DNA from: an uncultured Bacteroidia bacterium
GTDB lineage: Bacteria > Bacteroidota > Bacteroidia > Bacteroidales > F082
DNA length: 44,240 nucleotides
Reading direction: 5' to 3'
Assembly (NCBI GenBank): GCA_902801625.1
Contig: CADCJI010000027.1
Location: 1 to 44,240, forward strand
A program made the translations under genes and the position numbers. Positions 13,504 to 27,076 of this stretch are shown here, piece after piece. Positions within the stretch are counted from its first letter, which is position 1. Every line of letters begins with the position of its first letter. The notes beneath the pieces are model-generated. The model saw only the letters and a list, made by a program, of their open reading frames with translations. It was not told the origin of the DNA and did no database searches.

Positions 13504-14949
13504 ATGTCTGAGACCATAACGATACGGAAAGGTCTCGACCTGCCCATCAGTGGTGTGGCTGAGAAACGCCTCACCGATGCGCGCAGTATCACGACCTATG
13601 CCATGAAGCCCACTGACTTTGTGGGCCTAACCCCGCGATTGCTGGTTGAGGAAGGCGATAGGGTGGCTGTCGGCGATGCCTTGTTTTGCGACAAGAACGA
13701 TGAACGCATCCGCTTCACTTCACCCGTCAGCGGTCAGGTGAAGGCCATCGTGAGAGGCGAGAAACGCAAGCTTTTGGAGGTGGTCGTGGAAGCGGATTGC
13801 AAATCCGCAGGCTCGACCATCGCGGATTACAAATCCGCGACAACGGCTTTGACTACGGCAGATGCAATCAAAGAAGCCATGCTGCAATGTGGTCTATGGC
13901 CTCAATTGCGTCAACGGCCTTTTGGCACCGTCGCCAACCCCGATGACAAGCCCAAGGCCATCTTCATCAGCGCCTTCAGCAGTGCACCTTTGGCGCCTGA
14001 TTACGACTTTATTATGCGGGGTAGGGAAGAGCCTCTCAAAAAAGGCCTTGAGGCGCTGGCAAAGTTGACGAACGGAAAAGTCCATATTTGTTTCCGTCCC
14101 AATCAGCATCTTGCCTCAACAATTAAACAATTAAACAATCAACAGCTCAACATCCATTATATAATCGGTCCTCACCCTGCTGGAAACATCGGTACACAAA
14201 TCGCCCACATTGACCCTATTAATAAAGGAGAAATTGTCTGGACGATGAACTTGCAGGATGTTGCCGTGTTGGGTGAATTGGTTGCCACGGGCATTTACAA
14301 GCCTGAGCGTGTTGTCGCCGTGGCTGGACCCAATATCAAGAATCCACATTATTATCGTGTAAGGTTCGGGGCTTGTTTGGCTGAGATTACCAAAGCGCAA
14401 CTGCTTAACAATGAATATCCTAAGATGGATGCCAACGATGACACGAAGGAAAACCGCGTCATTTCGGGCGACATCCTGAGCGGCACACAAATCGCCGCTG
14501 ATGGTTTTCTGAGTGTCTACGATGACTTGGTGAGCATCCTGCCCGAAGGCGACTATTACGACTTCATGGGCTGGCTGATGCCTGGCTTTAGGAAGTTCAG
14601 CTTCTCGCGCACCTTCCTCAGCGGCTTCATGCCGAAAAGCACCTTCAAGCCTATGGGCATCGAGCTGCCGCGTTTCGAAAACCTTTGGAAATTCGACACC
14701 AACACCCACGGCGACTTGCGCCCCTTGGTCTTCACGGGCAATTTCGAACGGGTCTTCCCCTTCGACATTTATCCCACTCAACTCATCAAGGCCTGCATCA
14801 TCGGCGACATCGAGCTGATGGAGAACTTGGGCATTTACGAGGTCGAGCCCGAAGACTTCGCCCTTTGCGAGTTCATCGACACATCTAAAACCGACATCCA
14901 AACCATCATCCGCGAGGCTTTGGAGAAACTGAGAAAGGAGGGATTATAA
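13504..14949 (+). CDS. nqrA: Na+-translocating NADH:quinone reductase subunit A
   Basis: NqrA is the large peripheral subunit of the Na+-NQR complex, which couples NADH oxidation and quinone reduction to sodium export. The N-terminus has IRKGLDLPISGVAE, then GLTPRLLVEEGDRVAVGDALF and FTSPVSGQVKAIVRGEKRKL. The C-terminal part carries RVRFGACLAEI, ISGDILSGT, RTFLSGFMP and PFDIYPTQLIKACIIGDIE, all typical. At 481 residues it is longer than usual. The excess comes from an in-frame double palindrome at 13792-13839 (CKSAGSTIADYKSA) and possibly an AT-rich simple-sequence stretch near 14114-14150 (TIKQLNNQQL). The stop overlaps the nqrB start by one base. Confidence 0.93.
   Translation: MSETITIRKGLDLPISGVAEKRLTDARSITTYAMKPTDFVGLTPRLLVEEGDRVAVGDALFCDKNDERIRFTSPVSGQVKAIVRGEKRKLLEVVVEADCKSAGSTIADYKSATTALTTADAIKEAMLQCGLWPQLRQRPFGTVANPDDKPKAIFISAFSSAPLAPDYDFIMRGREEPLKKGLEALAKLTNGKVHICFRPNQHLASTIKQLNNQQLNIHYIIGPHPAGNIGTQIAHIDPINKGEIVWTMNLQDVAVLGELVATGIYKPERVVAVAGPNIKNPHYYRVRFGACLAEITKAQLLNNEYPKMDANDDTKENRVISGDILSGTQIAADGFLSVYDDLVSILPEGDYYDFMGWLMPGFRKFSFSRTFLSGFMPKSTFKPMGIELPRFENLWKFDTNTHGDLRPLVFTGNFERVFPFDIYPTQLIKACIIGDIELMENLGIYEVEPEDFALCEFIDTSKTDIQTIIREALEKLRKEGL
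13792..13839 (+). repeat. In-frame pair of palindromic repeats within nqrA
   Basis: GCGGATT-gca-AATCCGC (13792-13808) and CGCGGATT-aca-AATCCGCG (13821-13839) are two versions of the same hairpin, 12 nt apart. They encode ADCKSA and ADYKSA within the expanded part of NqrA. The gcggattacaaatccgc unit is one I recognise as a dispersed repeat in Bacteroidetes genomes (recollection, not searched). Confidence 0.85.
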
Positions 14950-23086: not shown

Positions 23087-26000
23087 ATGCAAATCTTCCA
23101 ACGCAACATCCTCAACAAATACATCGAAGGTCTTGATAATACGCTGATTGATGAGCGTTACAAGACTTTCTCCAGCTTCTTCTTGGATCCTGAAAGGCAG
23201 GCCAATATCCTCAACAGCAAGGAAGAGCAGTTCCAAGAAGGTTTCCTTCGCGAATTGTATGTGAAGATTCTCGGCTACACTCTGAATCCCGACCCAAATT
23301 TCAACCTTACCACCGAAAAGAAAAACGAGACCAACAGCAAAAAAGCCGATGGTGCCATTCTTGTCGATGGCAAGGTTGTGGGTGTGATTGAGCTGAAAGA
23401 CCACAAAACGCCTGACCTTAGCAAAGTTGAGGCTCAGGCCTTCAACTATAAGAGCCAGCACAAAGAAGCCGTCTACGTCGTCATCTCCAACTTCGAGAAG
23501 CTGCGTTTCTACATCGACAACGCCGTCGATTTCGAAGAGTTTGATTTGTTCCACCTTACCCGCGTCGACTTTGCCCTGCTATGGATATGCCTGGCATACG
23601 AGAACATCGCCAAAAACCTCCCCAAGCAAATCAAGGCCGCCAGCCTCACTAATGAAGACCAGATTACCAACGCCCTCTATAAGGACTACTCCAACTTCAA
23701 GCGCGACCTCTTCGAGGACATTCTGAAGAACAACCCCACCGATGACACGGAGCACAAGATCCTGCTTTTCAAGAAAACGCAGAAGCTTCTCGACAGGCTG
23801 CTCTTCATCTTCTTCGCCGAAGACCGTGGGCTGCTGCCACCCAACTCCATCATGCTCATCATCAACCAATGGGAAAAGCTGAAAGACCTTGACGAGTATC
23901 AGCCATTTTACAATCGCCTGAAGAAATATTTCGGCTATATGAACACCGGCTTCCAAGGCAAGAACTATGAGGTCTTTGCCTACAATGGCGGCCTCTTCAA
24001 GCCAGATGAAATCCTTGACGGTCTAATCATCTCCGACGAGGTGCTGATGCGCTACTGTAAGAAGATTTCCGACTACGACTTCCAGAGCGATGTCGATGTC
24101 AACATCCTTGGCCACATTTTCGAGAACTCTTTAACAGAAATAGAAGAGGTAACAGAGCGGCTGTTGACATCGGGTCATGCCTCGATGGGACAGTCGCAAA
24201 CAGCAAGCAAACGTAAGAAAGACGGCGTTTTCTACACCCCACAATACATCACCAAATACATCGTTGAAAACACCGTCGGCAAGCTCTGCCGCGAGAAGAA
24301 GGCGGAACTCGGCATTGATGAGAGCGAGTATTTCACCGACAAGAAACGCCAAGTGGCCACCAAGAAGGCCCTCATCGAGAAGCTGGAGGCCTACCGAGAC
24401 TGGCTCCTGCAGATTTCCATCTGCGACCCCGCTTGCGGTAGTGGTGCCTTCCTCAATGCTGCCTTGAACTTCCTCATCGCTGAACACAAGCTCATCGATG
24501 AGATGCAAGCCAAAGTCGAAGGTGCCGCCATCGTGTTTCCCAACATCGAGAACCCCATCTTGGAAAACAACCTCTACGGTGTCGACATCAACGAGGAAAG
24601 CGTAGAAATCGCCAAGTTGTCATTATGGCTCCGTACTGCCAAGCCCCACCGCAAGCTAAACTCGCTCAACGACAACATCAAATGTGGCAACTCGCTCATC
24701 GATGATCCAATTATTGCTGGCGATAAGGCCTTCTGTTGGGAGAAGGAATTCCCGAAAATCTTCCTCGAAAAACAAAAGCGACCATGGCATATCACTACGG
24801 CCGTTCACGATAGCCGAACCTCCGATAGAATGATAGAATACGACGTGAGGCGGCTTCGCGACCACGGCACACGACCTTACCCCGAGCCGATGCTTTTGAG
24901 CACGGAAGAGGAAATCATCATCACGGAGACCGTGGCGAAGATTGTGGAGGAAGATAAGCTGAACGTTTTGGCCTACAACATCTGCTTCGACCACATGCAC
25001 TTATTGCTCGTGTGCGAGGAAGAAGAAGTTCCGAAGATAGTGGGAAAGATAAAGTCGATGACGGCGCGAGCGGTAAATATAGCGATGGGAAGGACTATAC
25101 CTACGAAGGAAAAACCTAAAGGCTCGACCTCGGTAGCGACGGAAAGCCTGGTAGGTACGACCGCGATAGCGACGACGGAAAGCCCGGTAGGTAGGACCGC
25201 GGTAGCGACGACGGAAAACCCGGTAGGTACGACCGCGGTAGCGACGACGGAAAACCCGGTAGGTACGACCGCGGTAGCGACAGCGGGTCATGACCCGCTG
25301 ACCCTACCGGACGCTACCCTACCGGACGACAAGCTTCCGAAAAAAGGCGTCACGCAGTGTTCCCTATGGGGAAGAAAATTCGGCAATACTTATATTAACT
25401 CCGACGAACACCTCTACAACGCCATCGAATACATCCGGACCAACCGCGAACACCATGGCCTCGACCCACTTCCCGTAGAATATCCCCATTGCGTCTCCAT
25501 CGAAGAAGCCTTCCGACCCGAGTACACGGGCGGCTTCGATGTGGTCATTGGAAATCCACCGTATGTGCAGTTACAAACGATGGGCGAAATGAGCGATGCC
25601 TATGAAAAGTGTGGCTATGAAGTTTACAACAAAACCGCTGACTTGTATTGCCTGTTCTACGAGCGTGGGTGCCAGTTGCTCAAAAAGAAAGGGCTGTTAG
25701 GCTTCATCGCTTCCAACAAATGGCTAAAAGTCAACTATGGCATTCAGTTGCGCAAGTATCTGACAACCAAAGCTAATCCATATATTTTGATTGACTTTCC
25801 TGGAGTACCTGTATTTGAGGATGCCACCGTTGACCCGCAGATTCTCCTGCTTTCCAAAGAACCTTATTCGGGTAAGACCTTTGCTTGTGCCTGCAAGCAA
25901 ACCTCCGATATTGCTCTTTTCATCGAAGAAAACAAGAAGGAAACAACATTTGGCGAAGATGCTTGGACAATTCCTGATGACTCTTCGGCTATTTTCGAGA

Positions 26001-27076
26001 AGATGAATGTTGGAATTCCCTTGAAAGACTTACCGATTACCATTAACTACGGCATTAAGACAGGTTTCAATGATGCCTTTTTCATTAATGGAGCGACCCG
26101 TAACCGTCTCATTGCCGAAGACCCGAAAAGTGCCGAACTCATCATGCCATTGCTTCGAGGAAGGGACATTCAGGCTTGGGTACCAGATTGGGTTGATTTG
26201 TATCTGATCAACACACATAATGGAATAAAAGAGACTGGAATAGAGCCAATTAGAATAGACGATTATCCTGCCATCAAGAAACACCTTGACCAATTCTACG
26301 AGAAGCTTGCAAAAAGGATTGACAAGGGCGTTACACCTTACAATTTAAGGAATTGCGACTATATCAAAGAGTTCTCCAAGCCCAAAATCATGTACCCGAA
26401 CATGACCAAATACTTGCCCTTCATCTATGATGAGACTGGGTATTTCGGAAACGACAAGACGTTCATCATCACCTCTCAAGACGACAGTTTTTCGCTTAAA
26501 ATCTTAGTCGCCATTTTCAACTCGAAATTGGCCAAACTATGGATTCGCCGCCATTGTCCAGAATTAGGAGAAGATCGTCGCGAAATCCGAAAGGTCTATT
26601 TCGAGAATTTCCCCATCCCAATAGAGTCCGGCAGGTACGACCGCGGTAGCGATAACGGGGCATGCCCCGTTGACCCTACCGGATCCTTTCCTTCCATCGG
26701 CCTACCTTCTGGAAGCAATCCTGCCAGACTATCCCAATTGGCAGAGCAAATGCTTTCCCTCCATTCCCAGCTTCAGCAAAAGCGTCACCGTTTCCTTCGT
26801 CGCCTTCAGGACAACCTTGGCATCGCGAAAGTCACCGCCGCTTTGGAGCATTTCGATGAGCTGGATTTCAAGGCCTTTGTGGCCGAGTTAAAGAAACAGA
26901 AAGTCGCCCTTTCACTTGCCCAACAAGATGAATGGGAAGACTACTTCAACCAATACAAGGCCGACTGCAACGCACTCACCACCCAAATCGCCGCTACCGA
27001 CAAAGAAATAGATCAAATGGTTTATCAGCTTTACGGCCTGACTGAAGATGAGATAAAAGTAGTGGAAGGAGATTAA
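23087..27076 (+). CDS. Type IIG (Eco57I-like) restriction-modification protein with inserted RAYT/Y1 transposase domain
   Basis: This 1329-residue protein is a single-chain restriction endonuclease plus N6-adenine methyltransferase. The N-terminal nuclease has a PD-(D/E)xK core (D88, E102-L-K104 in VIELKD). Methyltransferase motif I is DPACGSG (447-453) and motif IV is NPPY (823-826). The region after about 900 would hold the target-recognition domain, and a coiled segment closes the protein. Homologues pass directly from the GNSLIDDP...EFPKIF segment to GGFDVVIGNPPY. Here about 252 residues (563-814) intervene. They form a HUH nuclease of the REP-associated tyrosine transposase type, with HMH at 636-638 and Tyr782 in EYIRTNREHHGL, split by a low-complexity repeat linker. 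A REP-like hairpin is also embedded near residues 1181-1199. No frameshift is present. There is no separate specificity gene nearby. Confidence 0.88.
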   Translation: MQIFQRNILNKYIEGLDNTLIDERYKTFSSFFLDPERQANILNSKEEQFQEGFLRELYVKILGYTLNPDPNFNLTTEKKNETNSKKADGAILVDGKVVGVIELKDHKTPDLSKVEAQAFNYKSQHKEAVYVVISNFEKLRFYIDNAVDFEEFDLFHLTRVDFALLWICLAYENIAKNLPKQIKAASLTNEDQITNALYKDYSNFKRDLFEDILKNNPTDDTEHKILLFKKTQKLLDRLLFIFFAEDRGLLPPNSIMLIINQWEKLKDLDEYQPFYNRLKKYFGYMNTGFQGKNYEVFAYNGGLFKPDEILDGLIISDEVLMRYCKKISDYDFQSDVDVNILGHIFENSLTEIEEVTERLLTSGHASMGQSQTASKRKKDGVFYTPQYITKYIVENTVGKLCREKKAELGIDESEYFTDKKRQVATKKALIEKLEAYRDWLLQISICDPACGSGAFLNAALNFLIAEHKLIDEMQAKVEGAAIVFPNIENPILENNLYGVDINEESVEIAKLSLWLRTAKPHRKLNSLNDNIKCGNSLIDDPIIAGDKAFCWEKEFPKIFLEKQKRPWHITTAVHDSRTSDRMIEYDVRRLRDHGTRPYPEPMLLSTEEEIIITETVAKIVEEDKLNVLAYNICFDHMHLLLVCEEEEVPKIVGKIKSMTARAVNIAMGRTIPTKEKPKGSTSVATESLVGTTAIATTESPVGRTAVATTENPVGTTAVATTENPVGTTAVATAGHDPLTLPDATLPDDKLPKKGVTQCSLWGRKFGNTYINSDEHLYNAIEYIRTNREHHGLDPLPVEYPHCVSIEEAFRPEYTGGFDVVIGNPPYVQLQTMGEMSDAYEKCGYEVYNKTADLYCLFYERGCQLLKKKGLLGFIASNKWLKVNYGIQLRKYLTTKANPYILIDFPGVPVFEDATVDPQILLLSKEPYSGKTFACACKQTSDIALFIEENKKETTFGEDAWTIPDDSSAIFEKMNVGIPLKDLPITINYGIKTGFNDAFFINGATRNRLIAEDPKSAELIMPLLRGRDIQAWVPDWVDLYLINTHNGIKETGIEPIRIDDYPAIKKHLDQFYEKLAKRIDKGVTPYNLRNCDYIKEFSKPKIMYPNMTKYLPFIYDETGYFGNDKTFIITSQDDSFSLKILVAIFNSKLAKLWIRRHCPELGEDRREIRKVYFENFPIPIESGRYDRGSDNGACPVDPTGSFPSIGLPSGSNPARLSQLAEQMLSLHSQLQQKRHRFLRRLQDNLGIAKVTAALEHFDELDFKAFVAELKKQKVALSLAQQDEWEDYFNQYKADCNALTTQIAATDKEIDQMVYQLYGLTEDEIKVVEGD
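25150..25257 (+). repeat. Three 36-bp tandem repeats encoding a linker in the RAYT insert
   Basis: Units at 25150-25185, 25186-25221 and 25222-25257 are nearly identical. Each encodes a 12-residue VGTTAVATTENP-type repeat. A degenerate unit precedes them, and a fourth copy runs into the hairpin element at 25256-25310. Each unit contains GGTAG twice. No spacers are present, so this is not a CRISPR array. Confidence 0.93.
25256..25310 (+). repeat. REP-like 55-bp element, copy A
   Basis: The element runs from CCGGTAGG to CCCTACCGG. It contains GTAG just before a perfect 18-nt palindrome, AGCGGGTCATGACCCGCT. The outer ends are themselves inverted complements. GTAG beside a hairpin is the organisation of REP sequences recognised by RAYT proteins (established for E. 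coli). Confidence 0.85.
26628..26682 (+). repeat. REP-like 55-bp element, copy B
   Basis: This has the same length and layout as copy A, 1.37 kb downstream in the same gene and frame. Its palindrome is AACGGGGCATGCCCCGTT. It differs from copy A at six bases; four of these are two compensatory base-pair changes within the stem. Confidence 0.88.

Follow-up and report, generated by a model that had tools for sequence, protein, structure and literature searches.

How does a transposase domain come to lie in frame inside a restriction-modification (R-M) enzyme, and how is it related to the hairpins found within the same gene? These questions are raised by the window analysed here, i.e. a stretch of 44,240 nucleotides of an uncultured Bacteroidia bacterium (contig CADCJI010000027.1, C27 in our set), taken from a source genome (G000) of 3.58 Mb and 84% completeness. 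One gene of the window encodes a type IIG R-M enzyme that carries, between two motifs of its methyltransferase, a domain related to the REP (repetitive extragenic palindrome)-associated tyrosine transposases (RAYT/TnpA_REP). The nesting of this domain, its conservation and its association with palindromes in the gene are direct observations. As their best explanation, to which comparison of the sequences gives slightly better than even chances, we propose an in-frame REPtron living inside the R-M gene.

The host gene encodes a type IIG restriction-modification enzyme

The gene hosting the nested domain has the following parts:

23087..27076, + strand: type IIG R-M gene hosting the nested domain, 1329 aa (PADLOC REase_MTase_IIG PDLC03609, E 3e-297; Pfam N6_Mtase, Eco57I and TaqI_C matches)
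23306..23521, + strand: N-terminal nuclease-like region, residues 74-145, with GVIELK at 99-104 (Pfam HSDR_N, E 9.6e-5, 22.8 bits, under the cut-off of 25.1)
24425..24445, + strand: methyltransferase motif I DPACGSG, residues 447-453 (read in the translation)
25553..25564, + strand: methyltransferase motif IV NPPY, residues 823-826 (read in the translation)
26147..26617, + strand: TaqI_C-like target recognition domain, residues 1021-1177 (Pfam TaqI_C, E 3.6e-12)

A nuclease (HSDR_N, slightly below its cut-off), an N6 methyltransferase and a target domain are thus present in a single chain, and together with the PADLOC match they uphold the type IIG assignment made in an earlier sequence-only reading of this DNA. 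Like the type IIG enzymes described by PADLOC REase_MTase_IIG and by Eco57I/TaqI_C, the protein has a nuclease-like N-terminus, N6 methyltransferase motifs, a target domain and a conserved C-terminal region. Unlike ordinary type IIG enzymes, it and its nested relatives contain approximately 165-260 RAYT residues between motif I and NPPY, and some carriers have in-frame REP hairpins in the host part.

A RAYT-like domain is nested between methyltransferase motifs I and IV

The insert is located between motif I (447) and NPPY (823) inside the methyltransferase domain and comprises these features:

24764..25528, + strand: nested RAYT/TnpA_REP-like domain, residues 560-814 (NF047646, PF01797 and 2xm3 profile matches; borders from homologues with and without the domain)
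24992..25000, + strand: HUH motif HMH, residues 636-638 (D-H-x-H invariant in 12 aligned nested domains)
25430..25432, + strand: candidate catalytic Tyr782 in YIRTN (EYIRTN, 781-786; Tyr invariant in the same 12 domains)
25137..25281, + strand: tandem repeat of four 36-bp units in the HUH-Tyr linker (four GGTAGGTACGACCGCGGTAGC core matches with 0-1 mismatches)

Searched alone, the segment matches the NCBIfam family REP_Tyr_transpos (NF047646) in two stretches with E 4.4e-12 and 46.1 bits, not reaching the curated cut-off of 80 bits, and Pfam Y1_Tnp (PF01797) with E 1.6e-7 and 31.9 bits, exceeding the cut-off of 23 over profile positions 23-81 only, i.e. the HUH half. A profile built from 12 nested domains finds the TnpA of ISDra2 (2xm3) with E 1.2e-5; its matches to ISHp608 TnpA (E 0.13) and TnpA_REP (4er8; E 0.82) are not significant. 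Both motifs and profiles place an HUH and a candidate catalytic Tyr within a Y1 core, the candidate core residues of the window domain being the HUH at 636-638, Trp761 and Tyr782. Invariant in the 12 aligned domains are D-H-x-H, L-W, Y-I-x-x-N and one distal His; the same motifs are readable in the nested genes of genomes G698, G727 and G652, the last having F-W where the others have L-W. The catalytic motifs are retained though the families are only 32-46% identical.

The sequence-only reading had located DPACGSG at 447, HMH at 636-638, Tyr782 in EYIRTN and NPPY at 823-826, all correctly, and had proposed profile searches and an alignment with homologues that now yield the Y1_Tnp and RAYT matches given above and a conserved HUH and Tyr. 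Its extent for the insert holds at the end (residue 814, position 25528) and shifts at the start, which lies at residue 560 (24764), three codons before the 563 it had given. It had missed the tandem repeat and the REP-like palindrome of the HUH-Tyr linker as well as the two further hairpins in the host part of the gene. None of the 13 Pfam matches of up to E 1 belongs to an intein or Hint family. Nor does the segment represent an autonomous IS200/IS605 element, as it lies within the 1329-aa frame, although no search was aimed at a neighbouring TnpB gene.

The closest described relative is subclass 2.4 of TnpA_REP, for which the available part of Quentin et al. 2018 (PMC6006769) describes double-foot REPs and REPs placed in frame between HuH and Y. 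According to the same text the two share the core of HUH, Trp and Tyr, an in-frame REP between HUH and Y, a double foot of 5' GT[AG]G and 3' C[TC]AC, low copy number and the presence of Bacteroidetes among the hosts. Subclass 2.4 members are described there as separate genes flanked by REPs, unlike the window domain nested in an R-M enzyme. The subclass motifs NH[IFV]H, WQ and YIxNNP are absent from the window domain, which has DHMH, WG(R) and YIRTN (YIRTNR including the next residue), and we therefore call it 2.4-like only. In-frame REPs within RAYT genes are thus already known (PMC6006769), and the words restriction, fused and methyl do not occur in what is accessible of that paper's main text. 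No RAYT nested in an R-M enzyme was found among the titles and abstracts listed in our literature searches, whose coverage leaves out most subscription journals and preprints.

The source genome encodes four more Y1 transposase proteins (L001-L004) with a Y---Q--HH motif, resembling subclass 1.2 as far as it is described in the available text of PMC6006769; the approximately 3.3 kb surrounding each showed no CATG hairpins.

REP-like hairpins accompany the nested domain

The gene of the window contains two perfect palindromes (P2 and P3) and a decayed one (P1):

24157..24197, + strand: hairpin P1, in frame and shortly ahead of the methyltransferase part (folded as DNA: -12.2 kcal/mol, z -3.1, stability reached by 1 of 200 shuffles; decayed in the window)
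25256..25310, + strand: REP-like hairpin P2 in the HUH-Tyr linker, with a double foot of 5' GTAG and 3' CTAC (perfect palindrome core 25281-25300; folded as DNA: -19.3 kcal/mol, z -4.1, stability reached by 0 of 200 shuffles)
26644..26681, + strand: REP-like hairpin P3 with a GTAG foot, located in frame between the target recognition domain and the C-terminal domain (folded as DNA: -14.2 kcal/mol, z -2.0, stability reached by 5 of 200 shuffles)

P2 reads GGTAG-CGA, then CAGCGGGTCATGACCCGCTG, then ACC-CTACC, and was folded as single-stranded DNA including the outer feet; as an in-frame REP between HUH and Y with a double foot it shows the trait of subclass 2.4. It is the sole hairpin common to all seven nested genes of the window's genus, with a CACG core in the version of G078. 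P3 shares the feet of P2, has a CATG core and is, relative to the shuffles, the less stable of the two. It is found in G000, G095, G018 and the second of two nested genes of G007 (G007b), is missing from nested G078 and insert-free G033, whose target domains are related, and was not found in the first nested gene of G007 (G007a), which has a different target domain. P1 occurs in G000, G095, G007b, G018 and G056 and is absent from nested G078 and G007a and from the eight domain-free homologues of the genus. Imperfect in the window, its inner stem is perfect in G095; between lineages two inner pairs have changed on both sides and two outer pairs are broken, so that the covariation is no more than suggestive; template switching restoring a palindrome would yield the same pattern.

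Taken alone, the window gene provides moderate evidence, since 31 of 300 synonymous-codon shuffles contain at least one palindrome under the rule used throughout (arms of at least 9, loop of up to 3), one contains at least two, and the remainder of the 44-kb window has two more, at 13820 and 39586. The weight rests on the comparison across genes. Palindromes are present in 15 of 15 nested genes (30 in 52.5 kb) versus 0 of 24 domain-free homologues (71.8 kb; p 4e-11), figures inflated by the inclusion of related rows; collapsed to families, the comparison still gives 7/7 nested versus 0/11 domain-free (p 3e-5). The nested domain harbours 21 of the 30 and the host part nine. Four of the 30, representing three distinct sequences, do not look REP-like by eye, and without them each of the 15 genes keeps at least one. 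Restricted to the host part, palindromes occur in 8/15 nested genes versus 0/24 (p 1e-4), or in 6/15 if only REP-like ones are counted (p 0.0015).

The core of the palindrome differs by lineage, being CATG in the window's genus, G727 and G625, TTTAAA in G118 and G698, TTGCAA in G124, G144 and G152, ATTAAT in G652 and G804, and another one in G294. In G698 one palindrome is N-terminal, one lies in the nested linker and one in the apparent C-terminal region past a frameshift. GT[AG]G feet accompany P2 and P3 of the window, and outside the genus feet are mostly absent or reversed.

The domain occurs at one site in seven families

Some match to the whole protein is present in 44 of 60 genomes of the genus, and eight close homologues lacking the segment read EFPKVFEK-GGFDVVIGNPPY, or almost so, across the site. 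Motif I and NPPY are 123 residues apart in 23 of 24 domain-free homologues and 118 in the remaining one, compared to 288-385 residues in the nested genes, in agreement with the earlier expectation that the two motifs are contiguous in ordinary homologues; the homologue set excludes G403, which is partial and lacks motif I. In total, 14 genomes from seven families were found to carry 15 nested genes, the insertion site being identical in all 15.

Within the genus, the insert used as query matched 11 of 99 genomes. Six truly carry the domain, always in this type IIG gene and twice in G007; the other five matches are weak (E 2e-4 to 6e-4) and represent translated REP-like DNA containing stops. 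Beyond the genus, the figures refer to even samples of 395 (phylum) and 355 (class) genomes and to 92 genomes of family f25. In the phylum sample the domain profile matched 7/395 genomes at E up to 1e-5, i.e. the window, the nested genes of G118, G124, G144, G152 and G294, and an ordinary RAYT in G187. In f25, 17/92 genomes were matched, including three nested genes from the phylum sample, the other new matches being distant (E 4e-11 or worse) and in frames of 120-243 residues. The class sample gave 6/355 genomes at E up to 1e-12, namely the window, nested G698, G652 and G727, and non-nested G625 and G804. G727 represents a different type IIG subfamily with its own N-terminus and has the nested domain at the equivalent place. 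The N-terminal part of the host was found in 23 of the 395 phylum-sample genomes (E up to 1e-40), six nested, 16 not and one an unjudged fragment. Among named records, close relatives of the insert are present at six loci, all from uncultured Bacteroidales or Bacteroidia metagenome-assembled genomes, and no relatives were found in phage, plasmid and viral collections at the sensitivity used.

The catalytic part of the domain is under strong purifying selection

Among the seven genus genes, the median pairwise ratio of non-synonymous to synonymous substitution rates (dN/dS) is 0.032 for the N-terminal part of the domain containing the HUH, equal to the 0.032 of the methyltransferase core, 0.17 for the C-terminal part containing the Tyr and 0.37 for the linker. 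These values are rough because synonymous sites are often near saturation, and of 21 pairs those with dS undefined or below 0.05 were dropped (core 7, N-part 2, linker 1, C-part 1).

These data bear on a reading as passive insertion, according to which an inactive transposase remnant is tolerated in the loop. The fast-evolving linker would fit this, as would the four of 15 nested genes that are frameshifted, interrupted or incomplete at a contig end (G152, G698, G294 and G056). Against it stand the dN/dS of 0.03 in the HUH part, the catalytic motifs kept at such low identity between families and the complete lack of stop codons within the nested domain (0/15 genes), and we regard it as improbable. 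The sequence-only claim of an in-frame capture of a RAYT-like domain with its catalytic motifs kept is borne out by this selection and by the invariant motifs.

Gain, loss and exchange of the domain

In a host tree of 35 rows, built without the fragment G483, the distribution of nesting requires six changes, at least five of them forced by well-supported branches. A tree of the RAYT domains, omitting the standalone RAYTs L165, L169, L179, L173 and L175, groups the nested domain of G727 with the standalone one of G625 (99/94) and the nested domain of G652 with the standalone one of G804 (97/86). Each supported clade has one type of palindrome core, although two clades with no established sister relationship both have CATG; G118 and G698 are unplaced. 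G804 has a long branch and an unlike N-terminus, the position of G294 is unsure and the deepest split is weak (55/12). The standalone RAYT of G625 (L203, L204) contains in its linker a tandem array of GACAATGGGGCATGACTC units, within which the assembly breaks.

The closest pair of alleles with and without the domain is G007a and insert-free G022. Their DNA is mostly 96-100% identical before the insert, 83-100% through the target domain and approximately 60-80% in the C-terminal part; over the 330 bp directly preceding the insert the identity drops to 76-90%. The final 100 bp of G007a before the insert are closest to nested G000 and G095 (92-93%), the preceding stretch to insert-free G055 and G024 (89-90%). 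The sequence-only reading had suggested a mobile domain spreading by in-frame insertion. Consistent with mobility are the single site in 15 genes, five to six gains or losses, two non-nested relatives and the presence in a second type IIG subfamily; the mode of spread fits less well, as the diverged tract beside the insert in this closest pair is better explained by homologous recombination, from an unclear donor, than by a clean insertion.

Motif IV and the target domain are located between P2 and P3, which raises the possibility of a device for exchanging target recognition, the RAYT moving this cassette. The target domain is indeed flanked by hairpins in G000, G095, G007b and G018, carriers of f25 have one hairpin where the nested domain ends and a further one or two shortly past the gene, and otherwise similar nested genes differ in their target domains. 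Exchange is, however, equally common in insert-free genes, the genus having seven target types in eight insert-free genes versus three in seven nested ones, and the target domain of G007a is 97% identical to that of insert-free G019. The breakpoints coincide with NPPY and the C-terminal domain, and not with the palindromes, both in the nested pair G124/G152 and in the non-nested pairs G019/G055 and G019/G024. As target domains are exchanged with or without nesting in the pairs compared, the RAYT is not required for it; a specificity-switching role is unsupported, and we rejected RAYT-driven exchange of target domains as highly improbable.

Hairpin copies beyond the nested gene

Copies of three stem patterns were counted in the genomes. 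The CGGG stem CGGGNCATGNCCCG is present only in the nested genes in G000 (2/2 copies), G095 (3/3) and G007 (2/2). G018 has seven copies, at least one of them being P3 of its nested gene, G056 has three, all outside its nested gene (incomplete in this genome), and G078 has none. In all, 25 of 99 genus genomes contain this stem (22 copies in G075), compared to one genome matched by a reversed control, showing that related hairpins exist beyond the carriers. Searched in 21 genomes, AAGGGNTTNNAANCCCTT has seven copies, all located in the nested gene of one of four carriers (G118, G124, G152 and G144) or no more than approximately 200 bp away from it, and none in the other 17, including nested G294, which has another palindrome. 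The CAAGGGG stem CAAGGGGNNNNNNCCCCTTG, searched in 40 genomes, has 17 copies in 14 carriers, five of them having none; 15 of the 17 are at the nested gene, two of these just downstream, and two are elsewhere in G018. The standalone-RAYT genomes G804 and G625 have three copies (one in its own RAYT) and one copy, respectively, and 23 of 24 non-nested genomes have none, the other, G381, having 43 of its own kind. That the hairpins are strictly confined to the nested gene was considered and rejected: it holds for the searched stems in G000, G095, G007, G118, G124, G152 and G144 and fails in general (G018, G056 and a DnaX-like gene).

Hairpins resembling P2 and P3 are also present in frame in the Gln/Pro-rich linker of another gene (L064, L066, L070 and L075), which we take to be DnaX-like, in four genus genomes, of which two are carriers and two are not. 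A CAAGGGG hairpin is also found inside another R-M-like frame (L210, G625:C33) in G625, which has the standalone relative of the nested RAYT as well. The 43 elements of G381 are of the form CAAGGGG...CCCCTTG and dispersed, many among those listed being paired approximately 40 bp apart, and its type IIG gene is not nested.

Discussion

The data can be combined in a model according to which a RAYT of the type with a REP hairpin between HUH and Tyr became nested in the loop preceding motif IV of a type IIG enzyme and persists as part of the enzyme. In TnpA_REP, which has been termed a domesticated transposase, cleavage of REPs is abolished in the catalytic Tyr mutant and a role of GTAG has been reported, according to the available part of PMC8266576. 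By analogy, the nested domain may still fold and cut single-stranded DNA at its hairpins via a Tyr782-5'-phosphate link, in which case it would use the in-gene hairpins as substrates and would have left them as footprints. Recombination would swap alleles that have the domain for alleles that lack it and vice versa, the R-M gene might be a vehicle giving the domain frequent horizontal exchange, and the in-frame seat beside a catalytic motif would make imprecise loss costly.

A number of observations weigh against this model. The Y---NP motif of class 2 is absent, the window having YIRTNR and other nested domains YIQHNR, YINNNR, YIDNNH or YIEDNK, in which the Asn is kept and the Pro replaced. 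Two AlphaFold models are of low confidence (mean pLDDT 39 and 30) and lend no support to intact folding of the nested domain. The feet are incomplete: within 30 nt of the genus palindromes, 5' GTAG/GTGG occurs in 6/15, 3' CTAC/CCAC being present in 13/15, the stem downstream of the G124 and G152 genes has the order reversed (CTACC/CCACC 5' and GGTAG/GGTGG 3'), and no feet were seen at the palindromes of G118, G698 and G727. Only 9/15 nested genes are full-length open frames: the near-identical genes of G007b (G007:C121, L080) and G018 (G018:C31, L081) have lost residues 1-208 with the nuclease-like N-terminus while keeping RAYT and methyltransferase, G152 (L131) and G698 (L199) have a frameshift after NPPY, G294 (L132) has a stop in the N-terminal part, and the gene of G056 breaks off in the target domain near the contig end. 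Genome-wide dispersal of REPs was not seen for the one stem pattern searched in the source genome, whose two CGGGNCATGNCCCG copies (at 84% completeness) are both in the nested gene, and the scarcity of the searched stems argues against active dispersal. Finally, selection equal to that on the methyltransferase core is not what one would expect of a purely selfish domain.

The last point leads to an alternative according to which the domain was domesticated as an accessory to the R-M enzyme, e.g. limiting expression by binding to hairpins of its own gene or transcript, or targeting the enzyme to invading single-stranded DNA that bears hairpins. The sequence-only reading had suggested that the domain may let the enzyme act on hairpin or single-stranded DNA. 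Besides the selection, the repetition of the architecture in seven families supports it, as does the location of the searched stems mostly or only at the nested gene in several carriers (CAAGGGG 15/17, AAGGGNTTNNAANCCCTT 7/7, CGGG all in G000, G095 and G007). The distribution is patchy, however, with 6/99 genus genomes carrying the domain and close alleles lacking it, G007b and G018 kept the RAYT after losing the nuclease-like N-terminus, and G018 and G056 hold further copies of the CGGG stem elsewhere. We consider this accessory role possible but rather unlikely. The REPtron is favoured over it; the data separate the two poorly, and they are not exclusive.

Two known systems resemble parts of the arrangement. 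The ShiLan domain is a mobile insert readable in frame in a phage DNA methylase that hides an HNH, as far as the available text of PMC11855218 describes it. It likewise is a stop-free insert in a DNA methylase gene with patchy distribution carrying a nuclease; its HNH is out of frame, unlike the HUH domain of the window, which shares the reading frame of the host protein and is fused to it. Rickettsia palindromic elements sit in frame in coding genes, according to the accessible part of PMC3733652, similar to the palindromic repeats described here, which differ in accompanying a RAYT encoded by the same gene.

The recurrence in other families of the phylum suggests either a working partnership or a well-adapted passenger. 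Only tentatively do we propose a one-gene unit in which the nested single-strand transposase and the in-gene hairpins would form a working cis circuit, for regulation, immunity to hairpin-bearing single-stranded DNA or gene-level homing, kept across the phylum. What TnpA_REP does for its host is, to our knowledge, unsettled. With a RAYT fused to an enzyme of assayable activity and candidate substrate hairpins in the same gene, this host role would become directly testable, aided by the naturally occurring pair of G007a, which has the domain, and the closely similar G022, which lacks it. The fusion would, in addition, provide an example of a methyltransferase that tolerates a nuclease domain between its motifs I and IV.

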